DNA from: Hymenobacter negativus
GTDB lineage: Bacteria > Bacteroidota > Bacteroidia > Cytophagales > Hymenobacteraceae
NCBI RefSeq assembly: GCF_016056375.1
Contig: NZ_JAEDAE010000001.1
Coordinates: 992,001 to 1,056,000 of the forward strand
Direction: 5' to 3'
Length of the DNA: 64,000 nucleotides
Part shown: positions 50,330-61,041 of the stretch, in pieces
Position numbering within the stretch: the first letter of the stretch is position 1
How the letters are laid out: every line of letters starts with the position of its first letter
The notes under the pieces: generated by a model
What the model saw: the letters and a program-made list of their open reading frames with translations, nothing else
Told to the model about the DNA's origin: nothing
Databases searched by the model: none
Made by a program: the position numbers and the translations under genes

Positions 50330-51250
50330 TTGAAAACCATCATTCCGCTCGGCAAGCTCATCGCCGTGGGCGGCAACGAGGACAAGGGCACCTACCCCAA
50401 CCCCCGGACCCGCCGCAAGTATTACCTCAACTTTTTCGAGTTGGGCATCCTGAAGCGCATTGTGCTCGAAACCGGCAAAACCGACCCGCGCATTGAAGTC
50501 GTGACCACCGCCTCCATGATTCCGGAGGAAGTAGGACCAATTTATACCGGTTCCTTTGCCATGCTCAACTGCCTAAACGTGGGCATCATGGACATTCGCA
50601 CGCCCGAGGACGCCCGCCAGCCCGAGTACCTGGAGCGCCTGCTGGCCGCCGACGTGGTCATGTTTTCGGGCGGCAATCAGTCGCGCCTGCGCGAGATGTT
50701 CGGCGAAACCGACTTCCTCGACCGCATGATTCAGCGCTACTACGCCGAGCCGAATTTTGTGATTGCCGGCACCAGCGCCGGGGCCATGGCCATGTCGCAC
50801 CACATGATTCGGGGCGGCTCGGTGCCCGATGCCCTGCTGAAAGGGGCCGTGAAAATGGGCACCGGCCTGGGCCTGCTGCCCGCCGCCATCATCGACTCGC
50901 ACTTTGTGAAGCGCGGCCGTTTTGGCCGGCTCATCGAGTCGGTGGCGCTGCACCCCAAGCTCATTGGCATTGGCTTGGGCGAGGACACCGGCGTGCTCAT
51001 CACCGAAGGCAACCTGGTCGAAACCATTGGTTCTAACCTGGTTATCATCATGGACGGCCACAACATCCAGCACAACAACGCTGCCGCTGCCAAAAAGGGC
51101 ACCGTGCTTTCCATCGAAAACGTGACCATGCACGTCCTGGCCAAAGGCAACGTGTACAACATGCGCGAGCGGAAATTCTACCCCAGCAAAGATGTACTGG
51201 CCCCCGCCGTGGCCCCAAGCGTGGCGATTGATGTTACGCCCGCTACATAA
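50330..51250 (+). CDS. Cyanophycinase (peptidase S51)
   Basis: 306 residues starting at TTG 50330 (no in-frame ATG is closer). Nucleophile Ser149 is in GTSAGAMAMS; the FSGGNQSRL segment at 112-120 and the Gly-rich IAVGGNEDKG near the N-terminus are typical. Cyanophycinase cleaves cyanophycin, a poly(Asp-Arg) store, to beta-Asp-Arg. The isoaspartyl peptidase that finishes this path is encoded convergently 96 bases away. No cyanophycin synthetase is in this window. Confidence 0.93.
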   Translation: MKTIIPLGKLIAVGGNEDKGTYPNPRTRRKYYLNFFELGILKRIVLETGKTDPRIEVVTTASMIPEEVGPIYTGSFAMLNCLNVGIMDIRTPEDARQPEYLERLLAADVVMFSGGNQSRLREMFGETDFLDRMIQRYYAEPNFVIAGTSAGAMAMSHHMIRGGSVPDALLKGAVKMGTGLGLLPAAIIDSHFVKRGRFGRLIESVALHPKLIGIGLGEDTGVLITEGNLVETIGSNLVIIMDGHNIQHNNAAAAKKGTVLSIENVTMHVLAKGNVYNMRERKFYPSKDVLAPAVAPSVAIDVTPAT

Positions 51251-51271
51251 AGCCTGCTGGAGTTCACTCAA

Positions 51272-51306
51272 AAAAGCCCGCTCATTACGCAAATGAGCGG
51301 GCTTTT
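51272..51306. terminator. Bidirectional terminator between cyanophycinase and isoaspartyl peptidase
   Basis: AAAAGCCCGCTCATT pairs with AATGAGCGGGCTTTT; both ends T-rich, and it lies between convergent stops at 51250 and 51346. Confidence 0.92.
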
Positions 51307-51345
51307 ACTTTCTACTCCGGCTGTGTTGCGCCGCTGTGCCAATAG

Positions 51346-52326
51346 CTACTCCTTATAAATAGCCACCAGCGCCTCCCCTCCCTCAACGCGGCTGGCGCGG
51401 TACATGCCATCCGAATTGAATGGCAGCGTAATGTTCCCGGCTGCGTCTACTGCAATCAATCCGCCTTCCCCGCCCACCGGCGCAAGCTTGTCCTGCACCA
51501 CAATCCGGGCGGCCTCTTCCAGCGATAATCCCTTGTATTCCATCAGACAAGCCACGTCGTAAGCCGCCACGGCGCGGATAAAATACTCCCCGTTGCCCGT
51601 GCAGCTGATGGCGCAGCGCGCATCGGCCCAGGTGCCGGCCCCAATGAGGGGCGTGTCGCCGATGCGGGAGTAGCGTTTGTTGGTCATGCCGCCGGTGCTG
51701 GTGGCAGCGGCCAGGTGGCCGTGCTGGTCGCGGGCCACGGCCCCTACGGTGCCCTTTTTCCAATTCGGGTCCGCCACGCCCACAAAGGTGTCGGGCTCAT
51801 CGAGCGGCGCTACCGGAGCCGGGCGGGCCTGGCTGTGGTCGAGGCGCATGCGGCCTTCGCGCAAGGCTTCCTGCAATTGATTGTAGCGGTGCTGGGTGAA
51901 GAAATACTCCGTGGGCTGCAGCGGCAGGCCGTACTCAAGCGCCAACTCATCGGCGCCAGGATAGCCCAGTAGTACGTGCTCGGTTTTTTCCATCACCAGC
52001 CGCGCCGCCCGAATGGGATTTTGCACCTGCCGCACACCGGTCACGGCGCCGGCTAGTTTGTTGTGGCCGCTCATGAGGGCGGCGTCCATTTCGTGATGGC
52101 CGTCGTGGGTGAACACGGCCCCGCGCCCGGCGTTGAACAGCGGGCAGTCTTCGAGGCTGCGCACGGCGGCTTCCACGGCATCGAGGGCAGCGGCGCCGTC
52201 GCGTAGCAGGTTGTAGCCCGTGCTCAGGGCTGCATCGAGGGCGGCACGATAGAGCAGTTCATCGGCGGGTGAAAGCGAAGCGCGGGCAATGGTGCCGGCA
52301 CCGCCGTGGATGGCAAGGGCGAACAT
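51346..52326 (-). CDS. Isoaspartyl peptidase / plant-type L-asparaginase
   Basis: 326-residue Ntn-hydrolase precursor. Autocleavage gives a new N-terminal nucleophile Thr193 in GTVGAV; the following GDTPLIGAGTWAD is the substrate-binding stretch. It hydrolyses beta-aspartyl dipeptides (including beta-Asp-Arg from cyanophycin) and L-asparagine. No signal peptide is visible. Its ATG is 133 bases from that of DUF3127 (divergent). Role in using cyanophycin dipeptides is inferred from the neighbour. Confidence 0.93.
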   Translation of the reverse strand: MFALAIHGGAGTIARASLSPADELLYRAALDAALSTGYNLLRDGAAALDAVEAAVRSLEDCPLFNAGRGAVFTHDGHHEMDAALMSGHNKLAGAVTGVRQVQNPIRAARLVMEKTEHVLLGYPGADELALEYGLPLQPTEYFFTQHRYNQLQEALREGRMRLDHSQARPAPVAPLDEPDTFVGVADPNWKKGTVGAVARDQHGHLAAATSTGGMTNKRYSRIGDTPLIGAGTWADARCAISCTGNGEYFIRAVAAYDVACLMEYKGLSLEEAARIVVQDKLAPVGGEGGLIAVDAAGNITLPFNSDGMYRASRVEGGEALVAIYKE

Positions 52327-54024: not shown

Positions 54025-55599
54025 CTACAAAATGGGCAAATACCGCTCGCGAATGATGTTAAGGTGGTGCCGCTCATGGCCGGGCACAATGTAGAGCAGC
54101 GCCCGCACCGTGGCTGGCCCGCCGTTGGCCGTGCCCCGCCGGTCCAGTTGCTCTTCAGTGAAGCTATCGAACAAGGCCACGGTGGCCGCGCGAGTCGCAT
54201 CGTACTCGGCCAGCAGGCTCACGATGGAACGGGCGTTGGCCCCGCTGTGTGCCACGTAGTCGTCCTGCTCGAATCCGGGCAGATTCTGGCCATCGTTGCG
54301 GGCAAAACGCATGGCGCGGTAGGCAAATACGCGCTCAGAATCAATCTGATGCAGCAGCATTTCTTTGAGGCTCCACTTTCCGGGGGCATAGGCTTTTTCG
54401 GCCTGTTCTTCGCTCAGGTCCGCAAAAACAGCGTGAATTTCGGCGGGTTGGGCGCGCAGCACTTCGCGCGGGTCGGCATCAGCCGGCACTAAGTTGATGT
54501 AGCCGGCGGCGTAAGGCAGGAAGTCGCCATCGGCAGGGCGGGTTAAGGACATAGGAGCGGGGTTTGGGTGAGTGGCAAGGGATAACGCGGTCGGCAGGGG
54601 TTGCCCGGCGGCACTTTCGGAAGTTTGGAGGACCAACGCGGCGGCAGCTGGCACGACCGGCGGAGCCGAAGGCGTCAGAATAGCAGGCGCCAGCTTCGGG
54701 TCGAGTTGCAGGCGCACCACCGGCAGCGGAGCGGGAAGCACGGACGGGCCTGCCACCGGCCCAAACGCCCAAATCAGAAAATCAGGCATTACCCGGCCCC
54801 AAGTGTCGGGATGATGGTGGCCGCCTTCTACCTGCACGTAGCGCAGGGCTTTCTGGACATCTAATCCACAGGCTATCAATTCGTCTATCAAATCCAGGCA
54901 GTCTTCTACCGAATCGATAACGCCGTTTTCGTTGCGGTCGCCGCGTTCATCCAGCGTGCCCACCTGCAACCAGAACCGGTGGCTGGGGTGCAGGCCCCCG
55001 GCCCGCACCAGGCCGTGCATTATGCGGTCGGCGGGCGTGTAGCCGGCCCCCACGGCCCTCTGTCGCCACCAGAACGAGCCCGAAAACACCCCGGCCCGCG
55101 CAAACGCCTCTGGGTGGTGCCACACCAAATCGAACGCCGACAGACCGCCGAGCGAAAAACCGGCCATCACCGCCTCGGCCGGACTAGCCGAAGCTTGATA
55201 ATTGGCTTGGGCAAAGGGCAACAGCTCTTCCAGCACAAACTGGGCATACGCCCCGGCCAGGCTGCCCCGGCCGTTGAAATCGGGGTGGCCGGCGGTGCCA
55301 TACTCCTGCACCCGCAGCTCGTTGGCGTGCATTCCGACTACTACAAAGGGCCGCACTGCCCCTTGGGCATACAGCGCATCGAGGGTGGCTTGCAGGTGGA
55401 GACGCTCAAAATCCTGCCCATCGTTGAGGTACAGCACCGGATAGGGAGCATCGGCGGCCAGGCGTGCCGGCGGCAGCAGAATGCTCAATTCTACTTGCCG
55501 CTCCAAAAAGCTGGACGGTAGCACTTCCCGGCAAAGGCGGGTGCTAACGGATGATATTATGGGGCTGGTGGAGTCTGCAAGCATCAAACAAAGTAACAC
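54025..55599 (-). CDS. Esterase (enterochelin esterase-like) fused to a DinB-family domain
   Basis: 524 residues. N-terminal alpha/beta hydrolase (about 25-285): nucleophile Ser in GFSLGGLSAF, oxyanion region LYLNDGQDF, and GGHHHPDTW with the catalytic His. A Pro/Ala-rich linker (about 290-350) leads to a DinB-fold four-helix domain (LSEEQAEKAYAPGKWSLKEMLLHQIDSERVFAYR, represented here as GKWSLKEMLLHQIDSE, and GHERHHLNIIRERYL), which has the His metal ligands. An internal ATG at 54552 could give DinB alone. The frame is unbroken, so a true fusion is favoured. It is divergent from the esterase gene at 55724. Confidence 0.87.
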   Translation of the reverse strand: MLLCLMLADSTSPIISSVSTRLCREVLPSSFLERQVELSILLPPARLAADAPYPVLYLNDGQDFERLHLQATLDALYAQGAVRPFVVVGMHANELRVQEYGTAGHPDFNGRGSLAGAYAQFVLEELLPFAQANYQASASPAEAVMAGFSLGGLSAFDLVWHHPEAFARAGVFSGSFWWRQRAVGAGYTPADRIMHGLVRAGGLHPSHRFWLQVGTLDERGDRNENGVIDSVEDCLDLIDELIACGLDVQKALRYVQVEGGHHHPDTWGRVMPDFLIWAFGPVAGPSVLPAPLPVVRLQLDPKLAPAILTPSAPPVVPAAAALVLQTSESAAGQPLPTALSLATHPNPAPMSLTRPADGDFLPYAAGYINLVPADADPREVLRAQPAEIHAVFADLSEEQAEKAYAPGKWSLKEMLLHQIDSERVFAYRAMRFARNDGQNLPGFEQDDYVAHSGANARSIVSLLAEYDATRAATVALFDSFTEEQLDRRGTANGGPATVRALLYIVPGHERHHLNIIRERYLPIL

Positions 55600-55723
55600 C
55601 GCCCGGTTGGAATGAGCTTCTTAATCAAATTAAAACCGGATAAATGCAGCCGGTCCATGATTTCTTTGCTAGTTTGCCGCACCGCTCTTCAACCATTTCC
55701 CCGCCCTTCTTTCCCCCCATCCC

Positions 55724-56431
55724 GTGCAGGAACAACACCGCCGCTTTTACTCGCACCACCTCGGCCAGGATATTGATATGCTGGTTTTTGGCACCTGGGG
55801 CTACCCGGTGGTCATCTTTCCCACCTCCGGCGGCCGCGAATATGAGGCCCGCGACTTCAAGCTCATCGAGGCCGCCCGCCCGCTGGTGGAAGCCGGCCGG
55901 GTCAAGCTTTTCTGCATCGATAGCATCGACCAGCATTCTTGGTACGCCAAGCACCTGGAGCCGCGTATTCGGGTTCAAAACCACGTTTTTTACGACCAGT
56001 TTCTGAGCGAGGAGCTCGTGCCCATGCTCCAGCGGGAGTGTCATGTCGACAAGATTGCCGTGGCCGGCTGCAGCTTCGGCGGCTTCCACGCGCTCAATTT
56101 TGCCTTTCGCCACCCCAACCAGGTGGCGCACTTATTTACGATGGGCGCCGCCTTCGATATCCGTCAGTTCGTGGACGGCTACCACGACGACAACGTGTAT
56201 TATAACAACCCGCCCGAATACCTGCCGGGCGCGTACAACGAGCATTTTCAGTGGATGAACATCATTCTGGGCACTGCCGAGCATGATTTCTGTAAAGAGG
56301 CCAACTTCCAGATGGCCCGCCTGCTCAGCGAAAAAGGCATCCATTACACCCTGGACGTGAAGCCGTTCGGCAACCACGACTGGCCCGTGTGGCGCGAAAT
56401 GTTTCCCCAGTATTTAGCTACTATCGGCTAA
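55724..56431 (+). CDS. Esterase family protein (alpha/beta hydrolase) of the ATP-grasp cluster
   Basis: 235 residues from GTG 55724. The hydrolase core has GTWGYPVVIFPTSGG and nucleophile Ser in AVAGCSFGGFHAL; the C-terminal His is in FGNHDWPVW. No signal peptide, so cytoplasmic. It lies 60 bases before the ATP-grasp gene and opens the rightward run that includes YbdK, an amidotransferase and a second ATP-grasp. In this setting it may hydrolyse or transfer an ester or amide product. Substrate unknown. Confidence 0.85.
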   Translation: MQEQHRRFYSHHLGQDIDMLVFGTWGYPVVIFPTSGGREYEARDFKLIEAARPLVEAGRVKLFCIDSIDQHSWYAKHLEPRIRVQNHVFYDQFLSEELVPMLQRECHVDKIAVAGCSFGGFHALNFAFRHPNQVAHLFTMGAAFDIRQFVDGYHDDNVYYNNPPEYLPGAYNEHFQWMNIILGTAEHDFCKEANFQMARLLSEKGIHYTLDVKPFGNHDWPVWREMFPQYLATIG

Positions 56432-56491
56432 GTCTTCCCCTTCCGACTCCCCAATTCTTCACCCCAGAAAACGCACCAAACACCCCAACCT

Positions 56492-57688
56492 ATGAAAAAA
56501 ATTGGCATCCTCTTCGGGCAGGAAAACACGTTTCCGCAAGCCTTCGTCGACCGCGTGAACCAGAAAGCCGTGGACGGCATCACGGCCGAGTTTGTGAAGA
56601 TTGAGCAGGTAGAGCAGGCCGTGCCCTGCGGCTACGACGTCATCCTCGACCGCATTTCGCAGGACGTGCCGTTTTACCGCGCCTACCTGAAAAACGCGGC
56701 CCTGACTGGCACGGCCGTTATCAACAACGCCTTCTGGTGGAGCGCCGACGAAAAGTTTTTCAACAACGCCCTGGCCGTGCAATTGGGCGTGCCGGTGCCC
56801 AAAACGCTGCTATTGCCCAGCAAGGCCCGCCCCGATGACACCACCGAAAACTCGTTCCGCAACCTGGCTATGTTCAGTTGGGAGCGGGCATTCGAACGCA
56901 TTGGTTTTCCGGCCTTCATGAAACCCCACTCCGGCGGCGGCTGGAAAAGCGTATATAAAGTAGACAACCCCGAGGAAGCTTGGCGCGCCTACGACGAAAC
57001 CGGCCAGCTGGTGATGCTCTACCAGGAAGCCATTGATTTTGATGACTATTTCCGCTGCTACTGCCTGGGCGGCAAGCACGTCCTCATCATGCCCTACGAG
57101 CCGCGCAACGCCCCCCACGAGCGTTACCAGACCACCATGAAAACCCAGGGCGAGGCCGGCCAACAGCTCCTCGACACCATTAAGGACTATACCCTGCGCC
57201 TGTGCCAGGGCCTGGGCTACGACTTCAACACCGTGGAATTTGCCGTGCGCGGCGGGGTGCCCATCGCCATCGACTTCGGTAACCCCGCCCCCGATGCCGA
57301 TATCAACTCTGTTGGTGCGGAGAACTTTGAGTGGGTAGTAGAGCACGCCGCGCTGCTGGCCATTGAGCGCGCCCAAGCCAATAAAGCGGGCAAAACCAAC
57401 CTCACCTGGGGCAGCTTCGTGCAGGACTCGGTGGGGGCCGCCCCCGCAAAACGCTACACTGGCCGAGGCGACGTGCAGGTAGGCCAGGCCGTGACCGAGA
57501 CCAACGACCTGGGTGCCACCGGCGCGCCTAAACCTGCCGCCAAAAAAGCCGCGCCGAAAAAAGCTGCCAATGCCCCCAAGCCCGTGCCACCCACCGGCGA
57601 AGTGCCCGTAGCAAAAGCTCCGGCCGCCAAAAAAGCCACCGCGCCCAAAGCTCCGGCCGCCAAAAAACCCGCTGCTAAAAAGGCTTAA
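56492..57688 (+). CDS. ATP-grasp ligase-like protein with histone H1-like lysine tail
   Basis: 398 residues. The ATP-grasp core covers about 1-325: FPAFMKPHSGGGWKSVYKV holds the phosphate-binding loop, VMLYQEAIDFDDYFRCY and FNTVEFAVRGGVPIAIDFGNPAPD the metal ligands. Residues about 344-398 are almost only Ala, Pro and Lys (14 Lys), in AAKKA/PAAKKA units, like histone H1 tails. ATP-grasp enzymes join a carboxylate to an amine or thiol. The next gene is the YbdK-like ligase (82-base gap with a hairpin). The tail could bind nucleic acid or be a modification target; unusual for the family. Confidence 0.88.
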   Translation: MKKIGILFGQENTFPQAFVDRVNQKAVDGITAEFVKIEQVEQAVPCGYDVILDRISQDVPFYRAYLKNAALTGTAVINNAFWWSADEKFFNNALAVQLGVPVPKTLLLPSKARPDDTTENSFRNLAMFSWERAFERIGFPAFMKPHSGGGWKSVYKVDNPEEAWRAYDETGQLVMLYQEAIDFDDYFRCYCLGGKHVLIMPYEPRNAPHERYQTTMKTQGEAGQQLLDTIKDYTLRLCQGLGYDFNTVEFAVRGGVPIAIDFGNPAPDADINSVGAENFEWVVEHAALLAIERAQANKAGKTNLTWGSFVQDSVGAAPAKRYTGRGDVQVGQAVTETNDLGATGAPKPAAKKAAPKKAANAPKPVPPTGEVPVAKAPAAKKATAPKAPAAKKPAAKKA

Positions 57689-57704
57689 CAGCCTCCCCGC
57701 CAGT

Positions 57705-57732
57705 TAGCCGCGCCCCCTTCCGGGCGCGGCTA
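57705..57732. terminator. GC-rich hairpin between ATP-grasp and YbdK genes
   Basis: TAGCCGCGCCC pairs with GGGCGCGGCTA; followed by a short mixed T stretch. It may attenuate read-through inside the cluster. Confidence 0.6.
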
Positions 57733-57770
57733 TTCTTGTCTTTGTCTTCCTGCTTCCAGTCGCTCCATCC

Positions 57771-58874
57771 ATGCCCACCCCCGTGTTTACCCTCGGCATC
57801 GAGGAAGAATTTCAGACCATTGACCCGGAAACCCGGGAGCTTCGCTCGCACCTCTCCCAAATCGTCGAAAACGGCAGAATCACGCTCCATGAGCAGGTGA
57901 AGGCCGAAATGCACGAGGCCGTGGTGGAAGTAGGCACCAATATCTGCCAGAATATTGGCGAGGCGCGCACCGAAGTACTGCACCTGCGCCGCCAGGTAAT
58001 TGAGCTGGCCGACCGGCAGGGCCTGAAAATTGGGGCGGCCGGCACGCACCCGTTTTCGCGCTGGCAGGACCAGCCCATCACGCCCGATGTGCGCTACGAT
58101 AAAATAGTGGAGGAATTGCAGGAAGCGGCCCGCTCCAACCTCGTTTTCGGGATGCACGTCCACGTCGGCATCGAAAACCGCGAAATGGGCGTTTACATGA
58201 TGAATACGCTGCGGTATTTCCTGCCGCATTTGTTCGCCCTCAGCACCAACTCCCCGTTTTGGGAAGGGCGCGAAACCGGCTATAAGTCATTCAGAACAAA
58301 AGTCTTCGAACGCTTTCCGCGCACCGGCATTCCCGGCTTTTTCCATAGCGCCAGCGACTATGATGAGTTTATCGCGCTGTTGGTAAAAACCGGCTGCATC
58401 GACAACGGCAAGAAAATCTGGTGGGACGTGCGCCTGCACCCCTTCTTCGATACCATCGAGTACCGCATCTGCGACATGATGATGCGCGCCGACGAAACCA
58501 TTGCCGTAGCCGCCATCATGCAGGCCCTGGTGGCTAAAATTTATAAACTTAAAGCCCAGAACCTCAATTTTCGCATCTACCGGAGCGCCCTCATCAAGGA
58601 GAATAAGTGGCGCGCCGCCCGCTACGGCCTCGATGGCAACATGATTGATTTTGGGATTCAGGAGGAGGTGCCCACCCGCAAGCTCATCCTGGAGCTACTC
58701 GATTTCATTGACGACGTGGTGGACGACCTCGGCAGCCGCCACGAAGTGGAATACGTACTGAAAATGATGGAGATGGGCACCGGCGCCGACCGTCAGCTCA
58801 AGGTTTTCCGCGAAACCGGCGACCTGAGCAAGGTAGTCGACTACATTCTCGCCGAAACTACATTCGGCCTGTAG
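57771..58874 (+). CDS. ybdK: YbdK-type carboxylate-amine ligase (GCS2 family)
   Basis: 367 residues. N-terminal GIEEEFQTIDPETREL and the GMHVHVGIENRE segment are signature; the rest keeps the family length. E. coli YbdK has weak glutamate-cysteine ligase activity, and the family forms a gamma-glutamyl or other amide bond using ATP. It sits between the two ATP-grasp genes of the run, so three ligases are clustered here. No glutathione genes are near. Confidence 0.92.
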   Translation: MPTPVFTLGIEEEFQTIDPETRELRSHLSQIVENGRITLHEQVKAEMHEAVVEVGTNICQNIGEARTEVLHLRRQVIELADRQGLKIGAAGTHPFSRWQDQPITPDVRYDKIVEELQEAARSNLVFGMHVHVGIENREMGVYMMNTLRYFLPHLFALSTNSPFWEGRETGYKSFRTKVFERFPRTGIPGFFHSASDYDEFIALLVKTGCIDNGKKIWWDVRLHPFFDTIEYRICDMMMRADETIAVAAIMQALVAKIYKLKAQNLNFRIYRSALIKENKWRAARYGLDGNMIDFGIQEEVPTRKLILELLDFIDDVVDDLGSRHEVEYVLKMMEMGTGADRQLKVFRETGDLSKVVDYILAETTFGL

Positions 58875-58894
58875 CTGATTTATCTTTGCCTTCG

Positions 58895-58920
58895 CAACGC
58901 CAGCCTTCCGGTTGGCGTTG
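58895..58920. terminator. Hairpin with T-run between YbdK and amidotransferase genes
   Basis: CAACGCCAGCC pairs with GGTTGGCGTTG and is followed by TTTATTTTTA. A possible promoter box, TATCTTTG at 58881-58888, precedes it. The cluster may be two transcripts. Confidence 0.7.
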
Positions 58921-58994
58921 TTTATTTTTAAGCTCGGCCCTGGCTTGGCTTTTTTCTATTTTTTGGTTGCAAAAGCCTATTTAATTGCTACTAT

Positions 58995-59819
58995 ATGGAA
59001 GCTATTCGCATTGCGATTCTGGATATGTATGATAATGCCCGCAACGAAGGAATGCGTTGCATTCGGCAGTTGCTCGCGCGGAGCGCGGAGGAAAACGGCG
59101 CCCGATTTCGCGTCGACACCTTCAACGTCCGGGCTGAAAACGAGTTGCCCGGTTTGGGTTACGATATTTATATTTCGAGCGGTGGCCCCGGTAGCCCGCT
59201 GCCTTCTGATGAGCCATGGGAACCCCGCTACTTCCAGCTGATTGACTCAATATTTGCTCATAATCAGGTAAATGAGCAGAAAAAGCATGTGTTATTGATT
59301 TGCCACTCGTTCCAACTGGTGAGCCGCCATTTGGGCGTGGGCACCATTAGCCGGCGCAAATCAACTTCGTTTGGCGTGCTCCCGGTGCATTTCACGCCGG
59401 CCGGCGCGGCCGAGCCCACCCTCCGGGGACTAGCCGACCCGTTTTACGTCGTCGATTCCCGCGATTATCAATTGGCAGACCTGAACCTGCCGCGCATTGA
59501 GGAATTAGGGGCCAAAATTCTGTGCCTGGAAAAAGAGCGGCCCCACGTGCCCCTGGCCCGCGCCGTGATGGCCATCCGCTTTTCGCCGGAAGTATTCGGC
59601 ACCCAATTCCACCCCGAGGCCGACGGCGAGGGCATGCTGCGCTACATGCTCACCGACGAACGTAAGCAACAGGTAATCAACACCTATGGCGAGGCTAAAT
59701 ACCACGAAATGGTGCGCTTGCTGGCCGACCCGGACACGATTGAATACACCGAATCCATCATTCTGCCTACTTTCTTGCGTCGTGCGTTAGTCCAATTGGG
59801 CCAGCTCACGGCTGCTTAA
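58995..59819 (+). CDS. Class I glutamine amidotransferase-like protein
   Basis: 274 residues. Catalytic triad is complete: Cys103 (in CHSFQ, replacing the usual CxGxQ), His206 and Glu208 in QFHPE. The oxyanion region SSGGPGSP is at 61-68. It releases ammonia from glutamine or hydrolyses a gamma-glutamyl amide (GGH/PuuD-like). Spacing of 31 bases to the second ATP-grasp-like gene shows an operon. It could supply ammonia or trim a gamma-glutamyl intermediate in the pathway. Confidence 0.9.
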   Translation: MEAIRIAILDMYDNARNEGMRCIRQLLARSAEENGARFRVDTFNVRAENELPGLGYDIYISSGGPGSPLPSDEPWEPRYFQLIDSIFAHNQVNEQKKHVLLICHSFQLVSRHLGVGTISRRKSTSFGVLPVHFTPAGAAEPTLRGLADPFYVVDSRDYQLADLNLPRIEELGAKILCLEKERPHVPLARAVMAIRFSPEVFGTQFHPEADGEGMLRYMLTDERKQQVINTYGEAKYHEMVRLLADPDTIEYTESIILPTFLRRALVQLGQLTAA

Positions 59820-59850
59820 TTTCTGCTCGTATTCAGCTGCTCCTTTGCTT

Positions 59851-61041
59851 ATGATTCCTGAGTACCGCCACCGCTACAACGCCGCTTTCACAACCGCGAA
59901 ATATCAGGAAATGCTGGCCGATATCAACCAGCAATTTCCCGGGCAACTAGACTTTCGGGTGGCCGAGACGCCGGTATTTATTCCGGCTGATTTACGAGAC
60001 AAATTAATTGCCGCTGGCGAATCAATTATCGACGTAATTCAGCAGGAAAATTTCAAGGAATTAACCGAGGGGGCAATCCCCGCGCACCAGCGCGTGCCCG
60101 GTGAGGAAGGGCGGCCCGAATTTCTGACTTTTGACTTTGCCGTGTGCCGCAACGCCACCGGCAACCTGGAGCCCCAGTTGATTGAGATGCAGGGGTTTCC
60201 TTCACTCTATGCCTTTCAGGCCTGGTTACCTGGCATCTTTGAAAGGCATTTCCCTATTCCCAACTCCGTTTCTGCTTTTCTCAATTCGCCGGATGTCGCT
60301 GATTACCGCGAGGAAATGCGTCGTTTTTTACTTGGCGACGAAGCACCGGAGAACGTTATTCTTTTAGAAATTTTCCCTGAAAAGCAAAAGACTCGGATTG
60401 ATTTCATTTTAACGAAAGAATTTTGGGGAATTGATGCTGTTTGCCTTACCAAAATTCGCAAAAATGGCCGTCAATTATTCTATGAAAAAGACGGGCGTCA
60501 AATTTCAATTAAGCGAATTTATAACCGCGTTATTTTTGACGAATTAGAGCGTTATCCGGACTTACCCGGCGAGTTTCATCTGACCAATGATGTGGATGTA
60601 GTTTGGGTGGGCCATCCCAACTGGTTTTTCCGCGTTAGCAAATACACGTTGCCGCTGCTCAGCGGGCCATTTGTGCCGCCTAGTTTCTACCTGCACGAGC
60701 TAAATTCCTACCCTACCGACCTGGAAAACTACGTGCTCAAGCCCCTGTTTTCCTTTGCCGGGGCCGGTGTGCGCCTGCACGTCACGGCCGCCGATTTGGA
60801 TGCCATCACCGATAAGGAGCATTACTTATTGCAACGGAAGGTTCAGTACGAACCCGTGGTGCAATCGCTTGACGGACTGGTGAAATGCGAAATCCGGCTG
60901 CTCTATGTCTGGCATCCCGACCAGGCGCGGCCTACGCTGGTTTGTGGCCTGAGCCGCCTGAGCCGGGGCGAGATGATTGGGGTAGATTTTAATAAAAACA
61001 AAGACTGGGTAGGTGGCACTACGCCGCTTTTCGAGCGTTAG
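59851..61041 (+). CDS. ATP-grasp-like protein, 396 aa
   Basis: ATG 59851 (a TTG two codons upstream exists). Helical N-terminus, then NLEPQLIEMQGFPSLYAFQ and DFILTKEFWGIDAVCLTKI, and an ATP-grasp-type segment LKPLFSFAGAGVRLHV followed by HYLLQRKVQYEP and VKCEIRLLYVW. The loop and the C-terminal acidic residues are in the order expected of an ATP-grasp fold, but similarity is distant. The gene is AT-richer in the middle than its neighbours. It completes the amide-bond cluster. Confidence 0.78.
   Translation: MIPEYRHRYNAAFTTAKYQEMLADINQQFPGQLDFRVAETPVFIPADLRDKLIAAGESIIDVIQQENFKELTEGAIPAHQRVPGEEGRPEFLTFDFAVCRNATGNLEPQLIEMQGFPSLYAFQAWLPGIFERHFPIPNSVSAFLNSPDVADYREEMRRFLLGDEAPENVILLEIFPEKQKTRIDFILTKEFWGIDAVCLTKIRKNGRQLFYEKDGRQISIKRIYNRVIFDELERYPDLPGEFHLTNDVDVVWVGHPNWFFRVSKYTLPLLSGPFVPPSFYLHELNSYPTDLENYVLKPLFSFAGAGVRLHVTAADLDAITDKEHYLLQRKVQYEPVVQSLDGLVKCEIRLLYVWHPDQARPTLVCGLSRLSRGEMIGVDFNKNKDWVGGTTPLFER

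Follow-up and report, generated by a model that had tools for sequence, protein, structure and literature searches.

A conserved, co-inherited set of three predicted amide-bond ligases and associated hydrolases in Hymenobacter negativus and other Bacteroidota

We found a real, conserved and co-inherited set of three amide-bond ligases and associated hydrolases in a 64,000-nucleotide (nt) stretch of the Hymenobacter negativus genome (hereafter the window; positions 992,001 to 1,056,000 of contig NZ_JAEDAE010000001.1). The genes encode an esterase (A), an ATP-grasp ligase (B), a GCS2 ligase (C), an amidotransferase (D), a second ATP-grasp ligase (E) and a divergent esterase (X). The original prediction, made from the sequence alone, had described A to E as lying in one direction at 55724-61041. 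All five are indeed on the plus strand there, and X (54025-55599, minus strand) had been overlooked. A to E tend to be inherited and lost together, and therefore very likely serve one pathway. We propose, with a probability of roughly one half, that this pathway is a non-ribosomal, probably cytoplasmic route to a small gamma-glutamyl peptide or peptide-amine.

Conservation and co-inheritance of the gene set

A search for conserved co-occurrence had been suggested as a check on a joint pathway, and we carried it out. From at least 580 confirmed relatives, we collected 80 E loci of named genomes, all bearing Bacteroidota names. Within the stretches examined, some of which end at contig ends, 49 of these loci carry A to E, five carry B to E, ten carry C to E, 13 carry D and E, and three carry E alone. 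Three loci (L122, L124 and L128) are counted among those with B to E, since their A match (27-28 %) is an X-type esterase. D is located upstream of E on the same strand in 77 of the 80 loci. The five genes are spread apart in some of the 49 complete loci (L072, L074 and L089, for example), and C and B are on the opposite strand in L124, L128 and L131. Among 26 further loci of relatives (L029-L054), 20 have A to E in the same order. This order is found in 19 of the 20 loci of the same genus, the twentieth being a 3.7 kb contig with C, D and E, and in one of the six loci from other families of the order; within the stretch, two of the remaining five have D and E and three have E alone. In gene content and order, the window is close to Hymenobacter loci such as L055 (Hymenobacter artigasi), with 83-99 % identity per gene.

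Across the phylum, we surveyed 148 genomes for matches with an E-value of 1e-30 or better. Of these, 49 have E, 60 have B, 52 have C and 40 have D, combined as BCDE (28 genomes), BCE (18), BD (6), BCD (4), BDE (2), B alone (2), CE (1) and C alone (1), with none of the four genes in 86. Both B and C thus accompany E in 46 of its 49 genomes. The presence of E varies within seven Bacteroidota families. In these families, the 21 genomes with E have B in 21 cases, C in 21 and D in 17, and the 25 genomes without E have B in one case and neither C nor D in any. Among the weaker matches left out of the survey are a fragment of E in G105 and a match to B in G110; both genomes belong to these seven families. 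The Fisher P values of the 148-genome tally ignore relatedness, and we therefore relied on shuffling within families, where none of 20,000 shuffles reached the observed overlaps.

Within the genus, C occurs in exactly those 21 of 37 genomes that have E, a pattern that linkage alone could explain. In families f41, f44 and f45, the three ligase genes are unlinked yet co-occur, except in G201, which lacks B. In family f33, D is on another contig or distant from E and is still present in all seven genomes with E. We reject chance neighbourhood or synteny alone as the explanation, as B, C and E are found together both within families and in genomes where they are not linked. The joint pathway of the original prediction thus withstood the comparison: the genes are conserved, are gained and lost together, and in several families are so even when unlinked.

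Predicted enzymes of the cluster

The families originally assigned to the genes were borne out. A, C and D score over their Pfam cut-offs, and B and E have ATP-grasp folds in their predicted structures, with E now refined to a glutathione synthetase/glutathionylspermidine synthetase fold.

C (57771-58874, plus strand) is a clear, full-length member of the YbdK/GCS2 carboxylate-amine ligases, and gamma-glutamyl ligase activity is predicted for it from its sequence. It scores 226.9 bits against PF04107 (GCS2; cut-off 21) in Pfam and 540 bits against NF010039 (PRK13515 carboxylate-amine ligase; cut-off 371) in NCBIfam, and it matches the ybdK structure 1r8g in a sequence search of the PDB (E-value 9.8e-63). 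It is the single PF04107 match in its own genome. The GCS2 active site has conserved acidic and H-x-H residues. In C, E11-E13, H129-x-H131 and R232 are invariant across 20 aligned sequences.

E (59851-61041, plus strand) has no Pfam or NCBIfam match at an E-value of 0.001, and its best match in a sequence search of the PDB is YgiC (E-value 0.2); single-sequence searches for both B and E gave nothing convincing. The open reading frame (ORF) of E spans 59845-61041. Its start is probably the ATG at 59851, the methionine of which is invariant in 26 of 26 aligned sequences. The AlphaFold model of E (pLDDT 89.2) has as its best structural matches YgiC, YjfC, glutathionylspermidine synthetase (GspS) and the human, yeast and plant glutathione synthetases (Foldseek and VIA-align). 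The best seven VIA-align matches reach Z 23-24 across 331-371 residues, and the first 20 reach Z 21-24 across 329-371 residues at 8-15 % identity; Z is 24.3 to 7uk8 (345 residues), 23.7 to 2hgs (371) and 23.6 to 2ioa (343). The first 25 matches are all of the glutathione synthetase type with Z of at least 18, followed by a putative gamma-glutamylcysteine synthetase (Z 11.8) and then by other ATP-grasp folds below 8. E thus appears, from its model, to share the fold of glutathione synthetase, GspS and YgiC, and is no member of a named sequence family. It lacks the amidase domain of GspS: the protein is 396-398 amino acids (aa) long, and its alignment with the E. coli enzyme is confined to chain residues 207-618 of the latter. 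An E-x-N motif is typical of the glutathione synthetase/GspS fold; in E, E114 and Q116 are invariant in an alignment of 26 sequences.

Three loci combine E with transporters. In L187 (4579-7182), a sodium:solute symporter and E lie within a single open frame of ~870 aa. A sodium:solute symporter directly adjoins E in L190, and a sodium:alanine symporter follows E in L174. No plasmid-borne E was found at an E-value of 1e-5 among 72,556 records.

B (56492-57688, plus strand) has no Pfam match. In NCBIfam it scores 30.8 bits against TIGR00768 (rimK_fam), below the cut-off of 143.4, and its best match in a sequence search of the PDB is a weak one to a D-Ala-D-Ala ligase (Ddl; E-value 0.002). The predicted model, which has a disordered tail (pLDDT 73.5), matches Ddl, ArgX and RimK, with Foldseek E-values of 4.7e-14 for a Ddl and 7.2e-14 for ArgX and a TM score (target) of up to 0.71 among the 50 matches listed. 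The model thus points to an ATP-grasp fold, which we call RimK/Ddl-like, and not a RimK, because B is below the RimK-family cut-off.

The tail of B is Lys/Ala/Pro-rich and covers approximately residues 316-398 (~57437-57685). Across species its sequence varies and its character is kept, with up to 147 residues past the last conserved motif. The net charge is at least +5 in 63 of 108 distinct tails; for 13 of these tails, the motif could not be located and the score was taken from the final 60 residues. In four Chitinophagaceae-type loci (L122, L124, L128 and L131), the tail has 13 residues and is not Lys/Ala/Pro-rich, and it is short in several others. A fixed tail criterion picked out 25 of 580 mechanically called ORFs of at least 150 aa in 35 Hymenobacter stretches, some of which represent the same species fetched twice. 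All 25 are B, and therefore the tail is peculiar to B within those stretches. The simplest guess is that the tail binds a polyanion, either the product or a partner.

D (58995-59819, plus strand) is a class I glutamine amidotransferase-like protein (PF00117, GATase; 41.9 bits, cut-off 22.8) with a C103, H206 and E208 triad that is invariant in 25 aligned sequences. In L053 and L168, its gene and that of E share 4 nt. Of the 49 genomes with E in the phylum survey, 19 have no D; of the 40 with D, 10 have no E. Other hydrolases are found beside E in some genomes without D. In L176 and L181, which belong to different families, an M29-type peptidase is located between C and E, at the position of D. 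The gene immediately before E encodes an Amidohydro_3 protein in all eight f41 loci and in L142; Pfam confirmed this assignment for L173 and L142, and the other seven were assigned by blastp cluster. In the other eight E genomes without D (families f29, f39, f45 and f50), no amidohydrolase or M29-type protein is directly beside E among the proteins scanned, although L172 has an M16 peptidase upstream. An Amidohydro_3-type protein also occurs in addition to D, between C and D in L166 and before D in L150. These replacements suggest that the role at the D position is amide hydrolysis, although neighbours may be replaced for other reasons. Since D is absent from so many E genomes and an amidohydrolase or M29-type peptidase is beside E in places, we doubt that D merely supplies ammonia to E. 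As a separate observation, L148 (3053-7077) has a distant GCS2 homologue (34 % to C) between the lipid A genes lpxB/lpxK and a class I amidotransferase; the latter is weakly similar to the gamma-glutamyl-GABA hydrolase PuuD (77.6 bits, cut-off 266).

The two esterases flank a presumed divergent promoter region of 124 nt (55600-55723). A (55724-56431, plus strand) is an alpha/beta-hydrolase of the PF00756 esterase family (46.4 bits, over the cut-off), in which G115-x-S117-x-G119, D188 and H218-D219-W220 are invariant in 20 aligned sequences. Its 15 PDB matches, mostly other esterases, include a weak one to S-formylglutathione hydrolase (E-value 0.0029). X combines a PF00756 esterase domain with a C-terminal DinB_2/thiol-transferase-like domain, with Pfam scores of 91.8 bits for Esterase, 83.4 bits for DinB_2 and 29.5 bits for MST. 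With starts only approximate, the X frame is 457-523 aa long in seven Hymenobacter loci and 238-289 aa long, the length of an esterase alone, in 22 non-Hymenobacter loci. The gaps in this cluster are 124, 60, 82, 120, 31 and 26 nt. The largest thus leaves little space for a precursor peptide inside the cluster; a precursor could be encoded elsewhere.

A proposed route and its rivals

What we observed is the gene content, the predicted folds, the invariant candidate catalytic residues, the linkage and the fact that B, C and E are inherited together. For the route proposed here, we infer the cytoplasmic location, the reaction order, the substrates and a hydrolase rather than an ammonia-donor role for D. 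C would use ATP to activate the gamma-carboxylate of glutamate (or a similar acid) and join it to a first amine, giving a gamma-glutamyl amide. E would then join a carboxylate of this product to a second amine, either an amino acid or a polyamine. C and E would in this way parallel glutathione synthesis, where a gamma-glutamyl amide is formed and its carboxylate is then condensed with a second amine, and B would perform a third ligation, either adding a further amino acid or making an acceptor dipeptide. D, or elsewhere the amidohydrolase or M29-type peptidase beside E, may cut an amide bond of the product or remove the gamma-glutamyl group, and the esterases A and X may serve in trimming or turnover.

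Several observations weigh against this route. D matches no gamma-glutamyl-hydrolase model such as PuuD in NCBIfam, its best match being PRK07567 (37.6 versus 264 bits), and its intact C/H/E triad and 4-nt overlap with E would also fit a glutaminase-synthetase pair. C is dispensable in places: E occurs without it in two genomes of the same order outside the genus (G039 and G058), and B, D and E occur without it in two more (G095 and G121). There is also, in other lineages, a second cluster form (L135-L138), in which a circularly permuted ATP-grasp protein takes the place of C between B and D, and E is missing. L136 and L138 contain A, B, the circularly permuted ATP-grasp protein, D and an X-like esterase; L137 has the same genes with no A seen, and L135 has B, the circularly permuted protein and D. 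In L137 the middle protein passes the CP_ATPgrasp_2 cut-off, and in L136 it falls short of it; the middle proteins of L135 and L138 align with it at 52-54 %. One of the genomes with this form (G080) has C on another contig, and the others (G071, G088 and G153) have no C at 1e-30. A profile comparison of E with the circularly permuted protein gave a probability of 12 % (E-value 0.0025, 86 columns).

Also on this side, two terminator-like hairpins, in the B-C gap (57705-57732, plus strand) and in the C-D gap (58894-58921, plus strand), mean that A to E may not be one transcript. Both were found by pattern scan and folding, and the scan of the region returned 17 terminator-like sites, with 12.4 expected by chance. 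The B-C gap also folds stably in L055, L056, L060, L062, L063 and L121, and in several other Hymenobacter loci the structures are unlike the one here and of similar stability; in L069, L097 and L053, this gap is ~30 nt and has no stable fold. The Bacteroidota-type -33/-7 promoter pattern has no match in the window (0.48 expected), and sigma-70-like sites number four (3.5 expected).

Other functions can be envisaged for the same genes. N-acetylglutaminylglutamine amide is an osmolyte and a peptide-amide, and provides a model for glutamine-dependent amidation by D and E as partners: D would release ammonia from glutamine, with which E would amidate the peptide product of C and B. We consider such a peptide-amide unlikely. 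The invariant triad of D, its position upstream of E in nearly all named loci and the 4-nt overlaps in L053 and L168 speak for it, but the numbers of E genomes without D and of D genomes without E do not, nor does the separation of D from E in f33. Moreover, the position of D is taken in two families by an M29-type peptidase, for which we know of no ammonia-donor role. Thus, among the products originally suggested (a peptide, a gamma-glutamyl conjugate or an amidated metabolite), the amidated metabolite has become less well supported, its would-be ammonia donor being so often missing. It also seems quite improbable that the product is a glutathione-like low-molecular-weight thiol, with C as a glutamate-cysteine ligase, E as a glutathione synthetase analogue, A as an S-acyl-thiol hydrolase and the DinB domain of X as a thiol transferase. 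C and the fold of E mirror the two steps of glutathione synthesis, the DinB_2 domain of X also matches mycothiol-S-transferase, and A has its weak S-formylglutathione hydrolase match. Mild support comes from a redoxin/thioredoxin-type protein close to E or D in 10 loci from three families (L173:7200-9089 and L150:6163-7377, for example), encoded on the opposite strand in nine, two of the 10 having been checked by Pfam. However, glutathione synthesis offers no role for B or D, and the loci in which X was measured as long and fused are all from Hymenobacter. Of the 148 genomes, 147, including this one, have the bacillithiol enzyme BshC, and the cluster is patchy, which makes a thiol role less likely.

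The fold and tail of B lead to two further readings. B might be a RimK-like protein ligase, the set attaching gamma-glutamyl or poly-amino-acid chains to a protein or peptide, with D and the esterases taking them off again. Its RimK/LysX/ArgX-like fold, its weak RimK-family matches and a polybasic tail that could bind a macromolecular partner agree with this, but E and C resemble small-molecule ligases, and no small-target-like family recurs across families near E among the ORFs of at least 80 aa compared, so that we regard such tagging as distinctly doubtful. The Pup ligase PafA has a GCS2-like fold, and one can imagine the tail lysines of B as a protein-borne acceptor, on which C would start a gamma-glutamyl isopeptide chain, E and B would extend it, and D or its substitutes would release it. 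Such a tethered non-ribosomal assembly without a separate carrier protein is very unlikely, the tail being short in several lineages that have the cluster. A part in cyanophycin metabolism is more improbable still. A cyanophycinase (207 bits, over the cut-off; at 50330) and an isoaspartyl peptidase (at 51346) are encoded at 50330-52326, 3-5 kb upstream, a cyanophycin synthetase (1103 bits) is encoded elsewhere in the genome, and an isoaspartyl-peptidase-like ORF (32 %) is near the second cluster form in L137; among the 26 and 80 E loci, however, cphB and iaaA matches are restricted to Hymenobacter-type loci. An anti-phage defence system was rejected as a candidate, with no PADLOC match for the six proteins at an E-value of 0.001.

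Significance and comparison with known systems

If the gamma-glutamyl route is correct, many environmental Bacteroidota would make a gamma-glutamyl-type metabolite by a compact three-ligase route. The named loci include Hymenobacter, Spirosoma, Larkinella, Dyadobacter, Runella, Emticicia and Chitinophagaceae. Their co-inheritance makes the genes a tractable target for finding a new compound, and the standalone ligases are potentially useful as amide-bond catalysts.

Among the papers listed in searches of the open-licence literature, we recognised none on this gene set; these searches did not extend to a comparison with the predicted amidoligase operons of Iyer et al. 2009. That work reportedly groups ATP-grasp and other amidoligases into predicted pathways, which would be of the same general kind.

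The individual enzymes each have known relatives. C is like the GCS2 ligases YbdK of E. coli and EgtA in being a full-length member that matches the YbdK structure, but it is grouped and mostly co-inherited with two ATP-grasp ligases. B, in its predicted model, shares the ATP-grasp fold with RimK, LysX, ArgX and the D-Ala-D-Ala ligases and differs from them in falling under the RimK cut-off and in carrying its Lys/Ala/Pro tail. E, likewise in its predicted model, shares a whole fold with glutathione synthetase, GspS, YgiC/YjfC and the fungal Cp1B, and differs from them in its 8-15 % identity, in having no Pfam match and no amidase domain, and in having E114/Q116 where E-x-N would be expected. 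In PMC12568646, YgiC and YjfC are termed peptidylpolyamine synthetases, with Pederick 2023 cited for peptide-spermidine ligase activity, and Cp1B, one of the structural matches of E, is described as forming pseudodipeptides.

At the level of gene sets, the Anbu/alpha-E/transglutaminase/ATP-grasp operon, as described in PMC6376114, likewise pairs a glutathione-synthetase-like ATP-grasp protein with a putative hydrolase, whereas no Anbu, alpha-E or transglutaminase domain was found here among the subset of neighbours scanned with Pfam. The cluster resembles the gamma-glutamylation/deglutamylation pairs PuuA/PuuD and AtdA1/AtdA2 in joining a gamma-glutamyl ligase to a class I amidotransferase-like protein; unlike theirs, the ligase is of the GCS2 and not of the glutamine-synthetase-like type, and two extra ligases are present. 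In kind, the set belongs to the predicted non-ribosomal amidoligase pathways that are already known.

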